Origin: Candidatus Poribacteria bacterium
GTDB taxonomy: Bacteria; Abyssobacteria; SURF-5
Reading direction: 5' to 3'
DNA: 11,120 bases
NCBI GenBank assembly: GCA_016215705.1
Contig: JACRIR010000230.1
Span: 1 to 11,120, forward strand
Shown: positions 1 through 6,014 of the stretch, in pieces
Layout: each line of letters begins with the position of its first letter
Position numbering within the stretch: position 1 is the first letter of the stretch
Notes under the pieces: model-generated
Databases searched by the model: none
Told to the model about the DNA's origin: nothing
Seen by the model: the letters and a program-made list of their open reading frames with translations, nothing else
Translations under genes and position numbers: made by a program

Positions 1-672
1 GCCTTGCAGGCCGGTCGCATCGCCAACCCACTTACCTTCTTTATCAATAACCTCTTTTTTGGTGCCATCATCCTTGGAAATCGTCACGCTCTTCGGATTG
101 ATTTGTTTGTCAAGCACGTCGTCGGCTTGAGCAGCCTTATCAGCTTCGGTAGCCTTGTCGGCCTGCACGGCTTTGTCAGCCTGGGTGGCTTTGTCGGCCT
201 GAATAGCTTTGTCGGCCTGGGTGGCCTTATCAGCCTGAATGGCTTTGTCGGCTTCCTTTGCCTTTATTGCTTCTTCGGCCTTTCGTGACATTTCGGCATA
301 GGGAACCGTGGTCAGTTTGGTCCGTGGAAGCATCTCCGGACGACCCGAAAGCATGATCCCAAGAAATAGGTCACCGTAAAAAGCCGGGTCAATCATTATC
401 GGATTAACCGTGCCCAATATAACCCTAAAGGAACCATCTCTCTGAGTTGTGACTTGCTGAACTTCTGACCACATCGGCGGTCCGCCTTGTTGGGCCGAAT
501 ATATGGAGAATTGGATTTGCCAAGGACCTGGATTCGGTGGAGGCTGACCTTGATACAGCAGTCTCCCGACGTAATTCATTGTACGCGGAACCTCAGCGAA
601 GGCTGCTGATGTGATGCTCAAGATGACGAAGAGTGCGACCAGAATAATGAGTCCATTCCTTTTCGACATCAT
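1..672 (-). CDS. Secreted protein with hexapeptide-repeat tract (C-terminus outside window)
   Basis: 224 codons are visible and the frame stays open to base 1, so the C-terminus is missing. The start is ATG at 670-672; a second ATG follows directly. An AAAGGGG Shine-Dalgarno-like stretch lies about 6 nt upstream. Residues 1-26 form a typical signal peptide: positive MMSKRNG, a hydrophobic core, and cleavage after AFA. Residues 30-125 contain NYVGRLLYQG, the pattern FSIYSAQQGGPPMWSE, then FRVILGTVNPI and LPRTKLTTVPYAE. I recognise this as the N-terminal domain often found in bacterial secreted proteins ahead of coiled-coil, fibre or collagen-like regions. Seven ADKAxQ hexapeptides follow at residues 141-182, then a region with alternating charged and polar residues. 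The likely role is an exported or surface fibre-like protein; no catalytic motif is seen. It appears monocistronic in this window. Function is unknown. Confidence 0.85.
   Translation of the reverse strand, partial: MMSKRNGLIILVALFVILSITSAAFAEVPRTMNYVGRLLYQGQPPPNPGPWQIQFSIYSAQQGGPPMWSEVQQVTTQRDGSFRVILGTVNPIMIDPAFYGDLFLGIMLSGRPEMLPRTKLTTVPYAEMSRKAEEAIKAKEADKAIQADKATQADKAIQADKATQADKAVQADKATEADKAAQADDVLDKQINPKSVTISKDDGTKKEVIDKEGKWVGDATGLQG
127..252 (-). repeat. Seven tandem 18-nt units coding ADKAxQ hexapeptides
   Basis: Seven in-frame 18-nt units encode ADKAIQ, ADKATQ, ADKAIQ, ADKATQ, ADKAVQ, ADKATE and ADKAAQ. The fifth residue alternates I/T in the first four, suggesting a 36-nt higher-order unit. 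The codons differ synonymously (GCC/GCT, GAC/GAT, AAA/AAG), so the tract is not freshly expanded. Regular A/D/K/Q composition favours an extended or helical stalk. Confidence 0.9.
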
Positions 673-1017
673 ACAACGCCCCTTTCTACACATGGATATC
701 ACCACGTTAACCAAGAGATTCATTCCCGTCGTCTCTCATCTCTCCTGTCTCCGAAAGAGCATTGCCCCCTTCCTTTGTCGTTGGTTGTTGAGGCGGCAAC
801 CATCGATATGTGAGACCCCCCCCTTGCGGCTGGCACAAGAGACACAGTTAGCCCCTTCTGCTGTGCCCAACGACGTCCGTGGTTGTAAAACGTGGGGTGA
901 AACTCATACCGGGAAAGCCTTCTCCCCGGAGAGAGTGCTTAGGATCTTTCGAGAATAGTAGCATATCGAATCCCGCGCGACGTGCTATATGCCAACTCGG
1001 ATGCCAGTTTCCGAGGT
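673..1017 (-). other. Long 5' leader of the secreted-protein gene, no gene seen
   Basis: If transcription starts about 7 nt past the -10 box at 1024-1029, the leader is about 345 nt. It contains several short inverted repeats: 995-1000 with 1009-1014 (CTCGGA/TCCGAG), 909-913 with 925-929 (CCGGG/CCCGG), 832-837 with 862-867 (GGCACA/TGTGCC), and 783-787 with 797-801 (GGTTG/CAACC). The transcript also carries a run of eight G at 816-823. I could not match it to a riboswitch class. Plus-strand open frames here look non-coding. Confidence 0.4.
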
Positions 1018-1147: not shown

Positions 1148-1477
1148 TTAGTGGAAATCGACGACCTGGACGAGTTCGGTTTTCTTGATGAGTTCGGTGA
1201 TTTCACGGCGAGATTTTTCGTCGCGGATGGGTTCGACTTCGGTGACTGGGAGTTTATCCGGGTTGACGCCCGATTTCCATTTAAGGATGTAGCCGGGTAC
1301 GACGGCGTAATGACAGCCGCCCATGCCGCAGCATGAGGAATCGATGATACCTGTGCCAACGATGTATAGGACTTCGCGGCCATTGTATGGTAAGCGGACT
1401 TCTTTCTCGAGCGAGTAGTGGCCGCCGATGGCCTGGACTTCTTCGTTGAGTTGGATGTGAGTGTATGTGCGAATCAT
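1148..1477 (-). CDS. Small conserved-looking hypothetical protein with CC-x4-C motif
   Basis: The product is 109 aa from ATG at 1475-1477. An upstream in-frame ATG at 1487-1489 is possible, but sequence beyond about 1490 belongs to dispersed repeats, so I take the shorter form. No strong Shine-Dalgarno is visible. The protein is soluble with no signal peptide. Features are EKEVRLPYNGREVLYIVGTG, then Cys49, Cys50 and Cys55 in SSCCGMGGCHY, then VPGYILKWKSG and a charged C-terminal helix (residues 84-102). The clustered cysteines and a nearby His57 could bind a metal or be redox-active, but this is inference. It follows the thiolase in the same direction, 171 nt downstream, with repeats between, so it may be the last gene of that operon. 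I do not recognise a named family. Confidence 0.7.
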   Translation of the reverse strand: MIRTYTHIQLNEEVQAIGGHYSLEKEVRLPYNGREVLYIVGTGIIDSSCCGMGGCHYAVVPGYILKWKSGVNPDKLPVTEVEPIRDEKSRREITELIKKTELVQVVDFH

Positions 1478-1490
1478 GCAGAAGATCATC

Positions 1491-1637
1491 CACGAAGGCC
1501 ACGAAGACAAATTGTAGGGGCACGGCGCGCCGTGCCCCCACATGAGATTCTTCGCTGCGCTCAGAATGACGGAGGTGGCGTCTCCGACGCCCCCCTGCCC
1601 TGTCAAATCCCTCTTAATCCCCCTTTGCGAAAGGGGG
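1491..1637. repeat. Cluster of four or five dispersed repeat elements
   Basis: In order: a CCACGAAGGCCACGAAGA motif (1491-1508); a perfect 22-bp palindrome with half GGGGCACGGCG (1517-1538); a GATTCTTCGCTGCGCTCAGA type element (1547-1571); a GGCGTC/GACGCC hairpin (1577-1582 with 1586-1591); and a CCCCCTTT-GCG-AAAGGGGG hairpin (1619-1637) ending 11 bp from the thiolase stop codon. All resemble short intergenic repeats common in environmental bacterial genomes. They extend some reading frames spuriously into 'VILSAAKNL'-like peptides. The last hairpin could act as a 3'-end stabiliser or attenuator for the thiolase message. Confidence 0.75.
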
Positions 1638-1648
1638 AAATCAGCAGA

Positions 1649-2857
1649 TTACACGCCGTATTTGCCGACGATGGCGATGCTGCACACGTTCATGAACGGG
1701 AAGCCGCCCAGATTGTGAGTAAGGCCGATTTTCGGGTCTTTCAGTTGGCGTTTGTCGGCCCGTCCGTGAAGTTGCAGATACATTTCGTAGACCATCCGCA
1801 GGCCGGAAGCGCCAATCGGATGCCCGAAGCACTTGAGGCCGCCGTCAACCTGACACGGCACTCCGCCGTCGAGATTGTAGAAGCCGTCCATCACGTCCTT
1901 GAGAGCGCCGCCGCGCGGCGAGATGTGCAGGTCTTCCATCGTCACGAATTCGGTGATGGAGAAGCAGTCGTGCACTTCCATCATCGAAATTTCTTTGCGC
2001 GGGTCTTTGACGCCTGCCTCTTCGTACGCTTTGAGACTCGCCTTCGATGTGGTCACAAAATGGTCGCCGTCCCATGAGTTGAATCCGAGTTCCTCGCCAC
2101 TGCTCAGCGCGAGTTGCAGCGCTTTGATAGTGACGAAGTCCTTCTTCCCGAGGTCTTTTGCTATTTTCGGAGTTGTTACGATTGCGCATGCAGCGCCGTC
2201 ACTCACTCCACAGCAGTCGAACAGGCCGAGCGGATGCGCGATAATCGGCGCAGCCAGTATTTGCTCGACGCTGACCGGTTTCCTCAAATGAGCTTTCGGG
2301 TTGAGCGCGCCGTTCGCGTGGCTTTTGGCCGACACGTGGGCGAGCGCAAGTTTCAGGTCGTCATCCGAAATCTTGTACTTTGCGGCATACGCGCTGGCGA
2401 GTTGAGCGAACGAGCCGGGCGCGGTAATCGCAGGCAGCCACAACCAGTTAAGCGTGCCGGAACTCGAGCCGCCGGCCGGCAGTCCGCCGTAGCCGGTGTC
2501 CTTCAGTTTCTCGGCGCCCATAGCGAGACAGATATCGTATGCGCCCGATGCGACCGCGTAGACTGCGCCACGCAACGATTCGGTGCCGCTGGCGCAGAAG
2601 TTCTCGACGCGCGTGCACGCAATCTTGTCGAGACGCAAAGACAGCGAGAGAGGAAGCGCGCTCTTGCCAACGTTCACTTCGTCCATGCACGTGCCGAGCC
2701 ATGCTGCCTGAATGTCTTTTTTCTCAATACCGGCGTCCTGGATACATTCCTGGAACGCCTCGACCATGAGTTCTTCGGACCCGACGTCCCATCGTTCGCC
2801 GAATCGCGTGCAACCCATTCCTATGATTGCGACCTTGTCTTTGATTCCGGTAGCCAT
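1649..2857 (-). CDS. Thiolase-family acyltransferase (acetyl-CoA acetyltransferase-like, SCP2-thiolase type)
   Basis: The product is 402 aa, the usual length for SCP2-type thiolases. The start is ATG at 2855-2857 with GAGGAG 8 nt upstream. The N-terminal beta strand is VAIIGMGCTRFGER. The nucleophile is Cys88 in ENFCASGTESLRGA. His296 sits in MEVHDCFSITE and His346 in FGHPIGASGLRM, both expected thiolase active-site positions. Glycines near the C-terminus (HNLGGFPFMN) fit the fold. The known reaction of the family is CoA-dependent Claisen condensation or thiolytic cleavage of 3-oxoacyl-CoA; this subtype often needs a DUF35 (Zn-ribbon/OB-fold) partner. Such a domain is fused to the gene just upstream, as in archaeal thiolase-DUF35-HMGCS complexes and, from memory, the benzoylsuccinyl-CoA thiolase BbsAB. 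Cytosolic. The substrate is unknown. Confidence 0.9.
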   Translation of the reverse strand: MATGIKDKVAIIGMGCTRFGERWDVGSEELMVEAFQECIQDAGIEKKDIQAAWLGTCMDEVNVGKSALPLSLSLRLDKIACTRVENFCASGTESLRGAVYAVASGAYDICLAMGAEKLKDTGYGGLPAGGSSSGTLNWLWLPAITAPGSFAQLASAYAAKYKISDDDLKLALAHVSAKSHANGALNPKAHLRKPVSVEQILAAPIIAHPLGLFDCCGVSDGAACAIVTTPKIAKDLGKKDFVTIKALQLALSSGEELGFNSWDGDHFVTTSKASLKAYEEAGVKDPRKEISMMEVHDCFSITEFVTMEDLHISPRGGALKDVMDGFYNLDGGVPCQVDGGLKCFGHPIGASGLRMVYEMYLQLHGRADKRQLKDPKIGLTHNLGGFPFMNVCSIAIVGKYGV

Positions 2858-2975
2858 CGTTCATTCTCCTCTATGTTTCCGCCGCCATCGATATCCTTCG
2901 CTCCGCTCAGGATAACAGTGAAGGGCTCAGAATGAGGGCGGAGAACCATTGTTCATCCTGCTCTATGCTTCCGCC
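2854..2975. repeat. Repeat insertion flanked by a 30-bp duplicated gene junction
   Basis: Copy A (2854-2883) and copy B (2946-2975) are direct repeats with 26 of 30 identical bases. Each contains the end of the upstream gene (GCGGAA.CATAG on the minus strand) and the Shine-Dalgarno/start region of the thiolase (ATGAAC.ATGG). Between them lie about 62 bp holding a TCCTTCGCTCCGCTCAGGAT type dispersed repeat (2893-2935). Copy B supplies the real stop codon of the upstream gene (2963-2965); copy A supplies the real start of the thiolase. Confidence 0.75.
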
Positions 2976-4417
2976 TGTGGGATTGCTTTCCAGAAGTATC
3001 CATGAAAACCGCGTTCCTTGTCGTACACCCTTTTGCGGAACTCCATCTTCATCCTCCTGCCGACTTTCAGGTCGCTCATCTCGCAGTCACTGAAATCGGC
3101 AAGTATTCTTCCGCCGCCATCGAATTGGACCATGCCGTACATATTCGGCGGGTCGACGGATACCGAGAGCATGTCCGCCGTGAAAGTCTTGATGATGGCA
3201 GGCGTATCGGCAAACTCGGCCGGCTCTTGCGACTTGACAGAGCCGCAGTCCGGATTGACGCAAACGTCTTTGCTTGGGATTTGCCGCGTGCCGCACTTCC
3301 TGCATTCGCCGCCGACGAACCCGAGTATGAACTTGCGGTTTCGATACAGCGTGGTCAGAGCCGTCTGGGTCGGCGCCTCGCCGCGTATTCCCATTTCGGT
3401 CTGCATCAAATCTCTGAATTTGAGGAACTTCGGATATGTATCAACTTCTTTCCGATTGGCGAGCGAGCCCTTGATTCCCACGCGAGCGGGCAATTTCTTG
3501 ATGTTCTCGGTGACTTCAAACAGGAGCGCATCTGAGCCCTGGCCGAAGCTGGCGACCAGAATCTTGTCGCCCGGATTGGCTTCCTCGAGCGCCGAGATAA
3601 ACATGACGAGCGCATGGGCCGCGCCGGTTTCGCCGCAGACTTCGTGCATATTGTCGACGAGTTGTGTCGGCTTCACGCCCAGGCCCTTCGCGATCACTTG
3701 ATGCTCGCGCTTGAAGAAACACGGAAACACGAACTTCGACAAATCACCGATGGAGACGTTGCATTTCTTCAGGACACCGTTGACAACTTCAGGGATTATC
3801 TTCGAGTAGCCCTCGTCACGGACCCATCTCTCTTCCCAGTTGTAGTCGTACTTGTTCAGCGAGCCACGATAGTGGTCGACGAAATCGCGCGAGAGCGAAT
3901 ACGAGCCCAGGCACTCCGCGATCACGTTTTCTGTTCCCAGCAGGAGTGACGCTGCTCCGTCGCCGAACCACATCTCATGGAAATAGGCCGACTTCGTCTC
4001 GCGCTTGTCGGCAGCAACAACGAGGGCCGATCTCTTCTCGCCACCCCTTATCGCGTCAAGAGCGGCCACGAAACCGGTTGTGGAAACCTTCTGCGACGCC
4101 GTAAAGTCGGCGGTCAACAGGTTCTCATTCAGATTCAGGGCAGTGGCTATGATTCCTGAATTCTGCCGGTCGGCAAACGGGAATGTTGTCGAGCACCCGT
4201 ACAGCGCATCCACCTTGCTTTTGTCCATTCCGGTCAGGCAATCACGCGCGGCGGCGACCGCCATAGTCAGCGAATCTTCATCCCAGTTGCACATTGACCT
4301 TTCGCCCTGGGCAACCGCCATGATTGCCGGGGCAAACCATCCCATGCTCTGAAAGATGGCCATACGCTGCAGCCTCAGTCTTGGGATGTAACCTCCGTAA
4401 GAAACAATACCGGCCAT
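2963..4417 (-). CDS. HMG-CoA synthase-fold protein fused to C-terminal DUF35 Zn-ribbon/OB-fold domain
   Basis: The product is 484 aa from ATG at 4415-4417, with GGAGGAG 5 nt upstream. Residues 1-305 form a thiolase-superfamily, HMG-CoA synthase-like domain: IVSYGGYIPRLRL, EDSLTMAVAAARDCL, ALYGCST, FGDGAASLLLG (151-161), and GDKILVASFGQGSDALLFEV (283-302). At the position where I expect the catalytic Cys (archaeal form EFACKAGTAG), this protein reads FTASQKVSTTG with Gln109. The expected His and Asn regions read FVFPCFFKREHQ and CGETGAAH. Residues 365-484 form a DUF35 domain: zinc ribbon Cys372, 375, 386 and 391, then an OB-fold with YGMVQFDGGGRILADFSD. First gene of the operon, with a promoter about 195 nt upstream and the thiolase downstream. 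Catalysis is doubtful; a scaffold or CoA-binding role is inferred. Confidence 0.85.
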   Translation of the reverse strand: MAGIVSYGGYIPRLRLQRMAIFQSMGWFAPAIMAVAQGERSMCNWDEDSLTMAVAAARDCLTGMDKSKVDALYGCSTTFPFADRQNSGIIATALNLNENLLTADFTASQKVSTTGFVAALDAIRGGEKRSALVVAADKRETKSAYFHEMWFGDGAASLLLGTENVIAECLGSYSLSRDFVDHYRGSLNKYDYNWEERWVRDEGYSKIIPEVVNGVLKKCNVSIGDLSKFVFPCFFKREHQVIAKGLGVKPTQLVDNMHEVCGETGAAHALVMFISALEEANPGDKILVASFGQGSDALLFEVTENIKKLPARVGIKGSLANRKEVDTYPKFLKFRDLMQTEMGIRGEAPTQTALTTLYRNRKFILGFVGGECRKCGTRQIPSKDVCVNPDCGSVKSQEPAEFADTPAIIKTFTADMLSVSVDPPNMYGMVQFDGGGRILADFSDCEMSDLKVGRRMKMEFRKRVYDKERGFHGYFWKAIPQAEA

Positions 4418-4663: not shown

Positions 4664-5968
4664 TTACCGAGGGATGGTATACCGCAGACCCTTCAGGCGG
4701 CCCGTCAGGAATTGGCGGTACACTTCAAGCCGGCTGAGGGGTGAAAGGTCGAACACATCAACATTCATATTGCGTGCGACGCAAGCCACTATGTTATCGC
4801 ACCGGCCGCACGTGTTAAGCGCGTCGACTTGAAGGTATTTGTTCTTCAGGGTCTCGTGCAATTCCTTGCAGGCGCATTCTCCGAGCAGGATAACGGGTTC
4901 CACGAGGTTCTCAATCTGACCCGCCTCAAAACCCTTACCCGTCACAATTGTCAGAGGCAGACTGCTGAAATCATTGGGAGAGTATTTCTCATTTACCAGT
5001 AGTTCGATGACTTGTTCGAGGTGACCGAGACACCCCTCATAGCATGCCCCTCCCTTTCCGACAACTACACGGAGGCTGTCCGGGAAATGCGTATTCAGTT
5101 CCCACGGGATTTTCTCGGAACAGGGAGGCATTTCTCCCTCTATCTCGATACTGTTAAGGTCAGCGACACCCAGGCCCTGTTCCGCCGCGAGAGCCACATG
5201 CTTTATCTCGACGGGTTCATGACCGAGAATCCTGGCGCAAACGGCATCGACAGCGACAACGTCTTCACCTCCCACAATGACATCCTTTTCGTGCAAGAGG
5301 TCCTTGGCGAACCTGCCTGGCGGCATCGGCCCTCTGGCAAGAACCTTAAGCGCATCCACAAGGGTGAAGTCAGGCCTGATAAACTTCAGGATGTTTACCA
5401 GCTTTTGATGCAGGTGGCGATTATGGTTCTTCGCCTTGTCAATATCATAGAGGAGGCCCATTTGGTTCTTGATGCCGGCGGTCATCTGCGTCTGGCAGTG
5501 AGCCTTCAGGACCGGCATATTCACGTAGATGCTATTCTTGCGTTCCACTATCAGGTTATCGTAGAGTATCTTCGGAAACCTTATCTTCTCTTCTCGCTCT
5601 CCCTCCCCTATCGTCACTCTCACCGATTTCTCTTCGTCCAGAAAAAGACACCGGAGCCGCAGGCGTCGGGCGAGACCATCGAGGCCGATGGTTGTGAAAC
5701 AAAGGCGCGTGAAGTTGCCCTGAGAACAATTCTCAACGAGAAAGATTTCTTTCTTTGAGTCGATGCTCCTCACGTACTCTACGACCGACTCAATCAATGG
5801 GAGCGACGTATGAAGATGGGGGTGAAAATAAACGGCGTTTATTTTGATAAACACTTTCTTGCAGTCATGCAGTCGCCGGACAATTTCGGGAAATCTTGCG
5901 AGAAGCTTATTGACAGCGAGGGGGGGACTGCCGGCCAGCTTTTCAATAGCGACTCTTGATTTTTTCAT
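4664..5968 (-). CDS. DUF362 domain protein with Cys-rich C-terminal region
   Basis: The product is 434 aa from ATG at 5966-5968. A TTG five codons upstream (5981-5983) is possible, but neither start has a strong Shine-Dalgarno, and MKKSRVAIEKL is a typical DUF362 beginning. The DUF362 core spans about residues 1-270: VFIKINAVYFHPHLHTS, EIFLVENCSQGN, YVNMPVLKAHCQTQMTAGIKNQMG (148-171), and VVAVDAVCARILG (237-249). The C-terminal third (300-400) carries Cys309, 313, 365, 367, 387, 390 and 396 in ACYEGC, GECACKEL and NTCGRCDNIVAC. This is not the CxxCxxCxxxC ferredoxin pattern seen at the C-terminus of some family members, but could bind Fe-S or another metal. Cytosolic, with no signal peptide. 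The biochemical role of DUF362 is not established. It lies downstream of tRNA-Phe and upstream of the thiolase operon, same strand. Confidence 0.85.
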   Translation of the reverse strand: MKKSRVAIEKLAGSPPLAVNKLLARFPEIVRRLHDCKKVFIKINAVYFHPHLHTSLPLIESVVEYVRSIDSKKEIFLVENCSQGNFTRLCFTTIGLDGLARRLRLRCLFLDEEKSVRVTIGEGEREEKIRFPKILYDNLIVERKNSIYVNMPVLKAHCQTQMTAGIKNQMGLLYDIDKAKNHNRHLHQKLVNILKFIRPDFTLVDALKVLARGPMPPGRFAKDLLHEKDVIVGGEDVVAVDAVCARILGHEPVEIKHVALAAEQGLGVADLNSIEIEGEMPPCSEKIPWELNTHFPDSLRVVVGKGGACYEGCLGHLEQVIELLVNEKYSPNDFSSLPLTIVTGKGFEAGQIENLVEPVILLGECACKELHETLKNKYLQVDALNTCGRCDNIVACVARNMNVDVFDLSPLSRLEVYRQFLTGRLKGLRYTIPR

Positions 5969-6014
5969 TGTCGTTTCGCTCAAACCAACCGATAGGGTTC
6001 CGAGAATCAGGACA

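Follow-up and report, generated by a model that had tools for sequence, protein, structure and literature searches.

The HMGCS-like/DUF35 gene and its surroundings

The window, that is the whole 11,120-nt stretch analysed (Candidatus Poribacteria bacterium, contig JACRIR010000230.1), carries on its minus strand a gene in which an HMG-CoA synthase (HMGCS)-like domain is fused to a DUF35 domain. The next gene downstream encodes a thiolase, such that the HMGCS-like, DUF35 and thiolase parts are encoded together, as follows.

2963..4417, minus strand: fused HMGCS-like and DUF35 gene (ATG start, 484 aa, open ORF; Pfam and predicted structure)
3398..4417, minus strand: HMGCS-like (thiolase-superfamily) domain, residues 1-340 (superposition on 6ESQ_I; dN/dS)
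2978..3346, minus strand: DUF35 zinc-ribbon and OB domain, residues 358-480 (Pfam; phmmer match to 6ESQ_E)
1649..2857, minus strand: thiolase, 402 aa, probable catalytic partner (C88, H296-D-C-F, H346, N382-x-G-G)

Directly upstream of the pair lies a gene for a DUF362 protein (4664-5983, minus strand), with counterparts at L098:1069-2391 and L099:16088-17404; as both relatives have this neighbour, the small phylum shows one conserved gene order, DUF362, HMGCS-like/DUF35, thiolase. Downstream of the thiolase, a small conserved ORF (1148-1606, minus strand) contains a Cys-rich stretch (SSCCGMGGC) and returned no Pfam match; its homologue in the related genome G002 (L099:12615-12971) is likewise positioned downstream of a thiolase. 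At the end of the window, an open-ended ORF (1-723, minus strand) encodes imperfect AxKADKAxQADKA-type repeats, to which Pfam gave a weak, low-complexity match.

Two Pfam families scored above cut-off in the 484-aa protein, ACP_syn_III_C and OB_ChsH2_C (ChsH2-type OB fold, DUF35), with Pfam coverage of the ketosynthase-III/HMGCS fold confined to its C-terminal half. Residues 1-339 matched the NCBIfam HMGCS models well below their cut-offs (TIGR00748, 130.6 vs 353 bits), and the protein scored 195.9 against PRK04262 (cut-off 244); these curated models are passed by an unfused relative with E-C-H-N at the catalytic sites (560). Among solved structures, the best matches were PhlA (9SKH, 5M3K) and the HMGCS subunit of the archaeal complex (6ESQ), while phmmer matched residues 358-482 to the DUF35 chain 6ESQ_E.

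Structure prediction and superposition on the archaeal complex, a check proposed in the earlier note, gave the protein the same overall fold as the HMGCS subunit of 6ESQ: 334 residues of the AlphaFold2 model (mean pLDDT 89.1, pTM 0.92) superposed on chain I, at 1.7 Å (Z 47.2, 27 % identity), and the next-nearest folds were PhlA (Z 44-45) and then MucA (Z 42). The DUF35 domain retains the four zinc-ribbon cysteines (C372, C375, C386 and C391), each of which is kept in 87-94 of 95 relatives.

Loss of the HMGCS active site across the fused family

The four catalytic residues of HMGCS are all replaced in the window protein. The codons concerned are listed here, with fractions referring to the 122 fused homologues described below.

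4187..4189, minus strand: codon of T77, at catalytic Glu82 of the Methanothermococcus thermolithotrophicus HMGCS (MAFFT; Thr in 113/122, Glu never)
4091..4093, minus strand: codon of Q109, at the HMGCS nucleophile Cys (HMMER, MAFFT; CAG, read as 'ctg' on the plus strand)
3722..3724, minus strand: codon of P232, at the catalytic His (MAFFT; Pro in 95/122, His in 1/122)
3629..3631, minus strand: codon of E263, at the catalytic Asn (MAFFT; Glu or Asp in 101/122)

Residues 104-115 read DFTASQKVSTTG. A gapless HMMER alignment pairs Q109 with Cys114 of the 6ESQ HMGCS ('EFACKAG'), HMMER likewise pairs it with a Gly of PhlA ('FAGKSG'/'FSGKSG'), and a MAFFT alignment of 101 rows places Q109 in the Cys column and T77, P232 and E263 in the Glu, His and Asn columns, respectively. 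Both the position assigned to Q109 in the earlier note and its impression that the Glu, His and Asn segments are altered are thereby confirmed. In the model, residue 109 lies just ahead of helix 111-124, where the nucleophile elbow of a thiolase fold should be; the pairing of Q109 with Cys is based on the HMMER and MAFFT alignments and on this position, the VIA-align superposition having come without residue pairs.

Our set of 95 fused relatives was assembled from named genomes by a peptide pattern, from plasmid loci and from close relatives, and its Cys column (MAFFT) contains Gln in 58, Leu in 26 and other residues in 11, with no Cys. As a single peptide pattern was used to choose the named-genome relatives, which were then ranked by similarity, Gln is over-represented among them; an independent sample of 386 genomes, 383 of which lie beyond the window's phylum, corrects this bias and shows mainly Leu at column 109. 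Enlarged to 122 by this sample, the fused set has Cys at 109 in none, Glu at 77 in none and His at 232 in one, column 109 being Gln in 59, Leu in 46 and one of several other residues in the rest. Weighted for redundancy, the column is 46 % Leu and 33 % Gln, plus R, V, T, N, M, A, P and E. The loss of Cys, which the earlier note suspected of being a family-wide trait, is indeed so, and what the fused family has in common is the absence of Cys at 109, not the presence of Gln.

In the 386-genome sample, unfused relatives likewise neighbour a thiolase gene, and 19/20 retain E-C-H-N, the sole exception being PhlA-like (S-G-H-D). The split is clean: DUF35-fused relatives lack the active site, whereas unfused thiolase neighbours nearly all keep it. 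Unlike active HMGCS, the fused family conserves T77 (87 % weighted), R139 (91 %), D153 (89 %) and H268 (65 %). A haloarchaeal fused HMGCS-like/DUF35 protein, encoded on a Natronorubrum plasmid (L014:3826-6422) with a thiolase before it, is also without the catalytic residues (S/T/Q/D) and is possibly a separate fusion.

The HMGCS-like domain is under strong purifying selection, with a dN/dS of 0.05-0.07 (window protein vs two relatives at 84-85 % identity) and equally low values in the DUF35 domain. Pseudogene formation or chance decay was rejected on the basis of a dN/dS of about 0.06 and an intact frame also present in L003 and L004. The fused gene was found in all three genomes available for the window's phylum, with one copy in the searched assembly of the window's own genome; both relatives contain in addition a second, diverged fused copy (L098:10036-12645 and L099:8831-11452; about 38 % identity), each a few kb from a thiolase gene of its own. 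In a maximum-likelihood tree of 80 HMGCS-like domains, obtained by a quick search and containing long branches (L014, MucA and L148), the fused, unfused-active and PhlA-like groups each form one side of a single branch with support of 97-99. In it, the window protein and its two relatives from the phylum cluster together, with a sister set of eight proteins, among them the four-domain proteins of sulphate reducers.

The genomic context agrees with the loss of the active site. A search for HMG-CoA reductase (PF00368) found none in the three genomes of the phylum, the window's genome being 92 % complete, while the window's own genome encodes Dxr, an enzyme of the MEP pathway; an HMGCS serving isoprenoid synthesis is therefore not expected, and a mevalonate role for the fused protein was rejected on these grounds. 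With neither the nucleophile Cys nor the catalytic Glu, His and Asn, with scores below the model cut-offs and with no HMG-CoA reductase found, the subunit is not an HMG-CoA synthase, as the earlier note had argued.

The thiolase partner and comparable systems

The thiolase (1649-2857) scored 688 bits against NCBIfam PRK06157 (cut-off 403) and failed the BbsB equivalog model NF053628 (143 vs 750 bits); its closest solved structures include 6ESQ_A. A thiolase adjoins the fused gene in 76 of the 79 loci with enough sequence, and C88, HDCF, H346 and NxGG are invariant in 75/75 partner thiolases.

Several known systems share parts of this arrangement. The acetoacetyl-CoA thiolase/DUF35/HMGCS complex of M. 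thermolithotrophicus (6ESQ, 6ET9) has the same fold and the same three parts as are encoded in the window; however, its HMGCS forms a chain of its own and retains Cys114 and Glu82, whereas in the window all four catalytic residues are lost and the HMGCS-like and DUF35 parts form one chain. Closer with respect to the active site is PhlACB (the DAPG acyltransferase PpATase, 5M3K/5MG5), with its relatives CsATase (9SKH) and MucABC (9VBO), in which the HMGCS-like subunit is likewise without Cys and Glu. The Cys position is occupied by Gly in PhlA and Glu in MucA, compared with Gln in the window protein. PhlACB also has a DUF35 partner, and its thiolase-fold subunit PhlC keeps Cys88 just as the window thiolase keeps C88; unlike the fused chain of the window, systems of the PhlACB kind have separate chains, perform biosynthetic C-acylation and form their own group on the HMGCS-domain tree. 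PhlA has Gly115 and Cys83 in place of the Cys and Glu, the substrate is touched by PhlC residues only, and activity nevertheless requires all three subunits (PMC6392133).

Pairs of a thiolase-fold enzyme and a DUF35 partner are found in other degradative systems. The benzoylsuccinyl-CoA thiolase BbsAB pairs a thiolase with a DUF35 subunit and is not known to have an HMGCS-like one. The DUF35 component of this enzyme (7PXP) is a zinc-finger subunit, and it belongs to the beta-oxidation of aromatic degradation. In the steroid aldolases Ltp2-ChsH2 and Sal-Shy, a thiolase-fold enzyme is held by a DUF35 domain, like the pair in the window; Ltp2 and Sal are, however, retro-aldolases with changed thiolase motifs (YDHF and YDCY, respectively) (PMC12329534), whereas the window's thiolase keeps HDCF and C88, a combination that fits an SCP2-type degradative thiolase rather than Ltp2 or Sal.

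A further candidate member comes from steroid degradation. In work on estradiol degradation by Novosphingobium tardaugens, EGO55_13555 was named 'HMG-CoA synthase', lies beside a thiolase and was given no role in the edc cluster (PMC7793797). The gene order of L015 (Novosphingobium sp. ES2-1 plasmid p3) matches that published cluster, and the L015 gene at the place of EGO55_13555 is a fused family member with T/L/S/F at the four catalytic sites (28 % identity to the window protein). Given this match in gene order, EGO55_13555 is probably a member of the family of fused, catalytically dead HMGCS-like/DUF35 proteins. It also bears on the earlier note's concern that automated annotation misnames such proteins, which held in part: the NCBI HMGCS models stay below their cut-offs and plasmid records use other names for the relatives ('OB-fold domain-containing protein', '3-oxoacyl-ACP synthase III C-terminal domain protein'), but a published paper gave an apparent member the name of the enzyme.

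Several Proteobacteria and Actinomycetota carry the pair in beta-oxidation gene sets, together with acyl-CoA dehydrogenase, MaoC/enoyl-CoA hydratase, SDR and CoA ligase or transferase genes. Acyl-CoA dehydrogenase genes were present in 26/80 loci and AMP-ligases in 12/80, both clusters having been named by sequence and not by family search. In 26 of the 95 fused relatives, one of them in the complete genome of Desulfosarcina alkanivorans, the ORF is extended in frame by at least 300 residues. This extension is an SDR with a C-terminal SCP2 domain (Pfam, two examined), and all 22 complete extended proteins retain the SDR motifs TGxxxGLG and YxxxK. The resulting order of HMGCS-like, DUF35, SDR (hydroxyacyl-CoA dehydrogenase type) and SCP2 domains, followed by the thiolase gene, is seen at L020:7962-10733, L027:7977-10727 and about 24 other loci, from Desulfobacterota and relatives. 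The window's genome has free SDRs of the extension type (50-52 % identity) and a match to the SCP2 region elsewhere.

A probable structural role in a degradative thiolase complex

The reading that fits the data best is one of two offered in the earlier note, a pseudo-enzyme scaffold for the adjacent thiolase. We consider it likely that the HMGCS-like/DUF35 fusion is catalytically dead and, having no HMGCS activity, acts as a structural and substrate-handling subunit of the degradative thiolase encoded at 1649-2857; the partner is most likely a fat- or steroid-breaking thiolase held by its HMGCS-like structural partner. From the sequence, the fold, the loss of four residues across the family, the conservation of the thiolase site, the adjacency of the genes and the purifying selection, all of which are observed, we infer a physical complex, the thiolysis direction and the kind of substrate. 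Thiolase C88 would perform the chemistry, a thiolysis of 3-oxoacyl-CoA of the beta-oxidation type, while the DUF35 domain would tie the thiolase to HMGCS-like dimers, as separate subunits do in the archaeal thiolase/DUF35/HMGCS complex and in PhlACB. Since the polypeptide of sulphate reducers continues into an SDR of the 3-hydroxyacyl-CoA dehydrogenase type and SCP2, the dead domain may be an assembly platform uniting dehydrogenase and thiolase. By analogy, PhlACB offers a direct model for this scaffold explanation; the earlier note missed both the PhlA/MucA precedent and the SDR and SCP2 fusion. Two observations count against the scaffold reading, namely that no dehydrogenase, hydratase or ligase gene lies beside the window's pair and that T77, R139, D153 and H268 are well conserved, something not obviously required of a pure spacer.

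The same residues could instead serve an HMGCS-like pocket with a new reaction (e.g. hydrolysis, decarboxylation or retro-aldol cleavage of a CoA ester) via T77, R139, D153, E263 or H268. In favour of this idea, T77, R139 and D153 hardly vary among fused proteins and set them apart from unfused HMGCS, and the thiolase fold has been repurposed elsewhere, as in the aldolases Ltp2 and Sal (PMC12329534); nonetheless, we regard it as unlikely, given that there is no invariant nucleophile, His or acid at the old sites (109, L/Q/other; 232, P/Y/A/S; 263, D/E/N) and that PhlA, equally without Cys and Glu, has no part in the acyl-transfer step (PMC6392133). A biosynthetic C-acyltransferase of the PhlACB/MucABC kind, in place of a beta-oxidation thiolase, would account for the same three-part organisation with its dead HMGCS-like subunit. 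This is very unlikely, however, as the HDCF motif of SCP2-thiolases is intact in the window's thiolase, which also matches thiolase models; moreover, beta-oxidation gene sets surround many of the relatives, and the HMGCS-domain tree sets PhlA and MucA apart.

A genuine HMGCS with a displaced nucleophile (C75, C233 or C261) is highly improbable. Of the protein's twelve Cys, four serve the zinc ribbon; no other was found at the nucleophile position or is conserved well enough to replace it, either in the 95 close relatives or in the weighted set of 122. C75, C169 and C219 are poorly conserved, and although C233 and C261 fall within the former His and Asn segments and occur in 66/95 and 65/95 close relatives, respectively, they are missing in many others (28 % and 22 % weighted). 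In addition, Glu, His and Asn are also gone, the scores lie under the HMGCS cut-offs, and the genome has the MEP pathway with no HMG-CoA reductase found. Replacement of Cys by Gln converts ketosynthases into decarboxylases (KSQ), in which His and Asn residues assist decarboxylation. Structures of E. coli FabH C112Q exist (9ka5/9ka6), and the earlier note had brought in KSQ for comparison; on such a reading, Gln at the nucleophile site would support decarboxylation of a malonyl-type thioester. Since the trait is the absence of Cys and not the presence of Gln, this comparison falls: column 109 is mostly Leu or Gln (weighted, Leu 46 % vs Gln 33 %, also R, V, N, A and P), and the His and Asn positions are P232 and E263, leaving a KSQ-like decarboxylase with scant plausibility.

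That an HMGCS-like subunit in a thiolase complex can be dead is a principle already known from PhlA, whereas we found no description of the fused degradative branch or of the SDR/SCP2 fusion in the literature that could be searched. The SDR and SCP2 continuation in sulphate reducers suggests a beta-oxidation metabolon. As a more tentative extension of the scaffold reading, one that we hold possible but would not favour, the fused HMGCS-like/DUF35 protein might be the hub of a widespread metabolon of this type, in which the four-domain polypeptide would dock the thiolase and channel bulky CoA esters from dehydrogenase to thiolase via the retired HMGCS pocket, the window protein being a simpler form.

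The same arrangement occurs in many bacteria, and the scaffold reading provides a testable role for a wide range of proteins that look like HMG-CoA synthase yet are unable to be one; judged by gene order, the 'HMG-CoA synthase' of the edc cluster for bacterial estradiol degradation is probably among them. The split between fused and unfused relatives should help genome annotation, and it suggests that a retired enzyme has been retained as an assembly platform for the degradation of bulky compounds.
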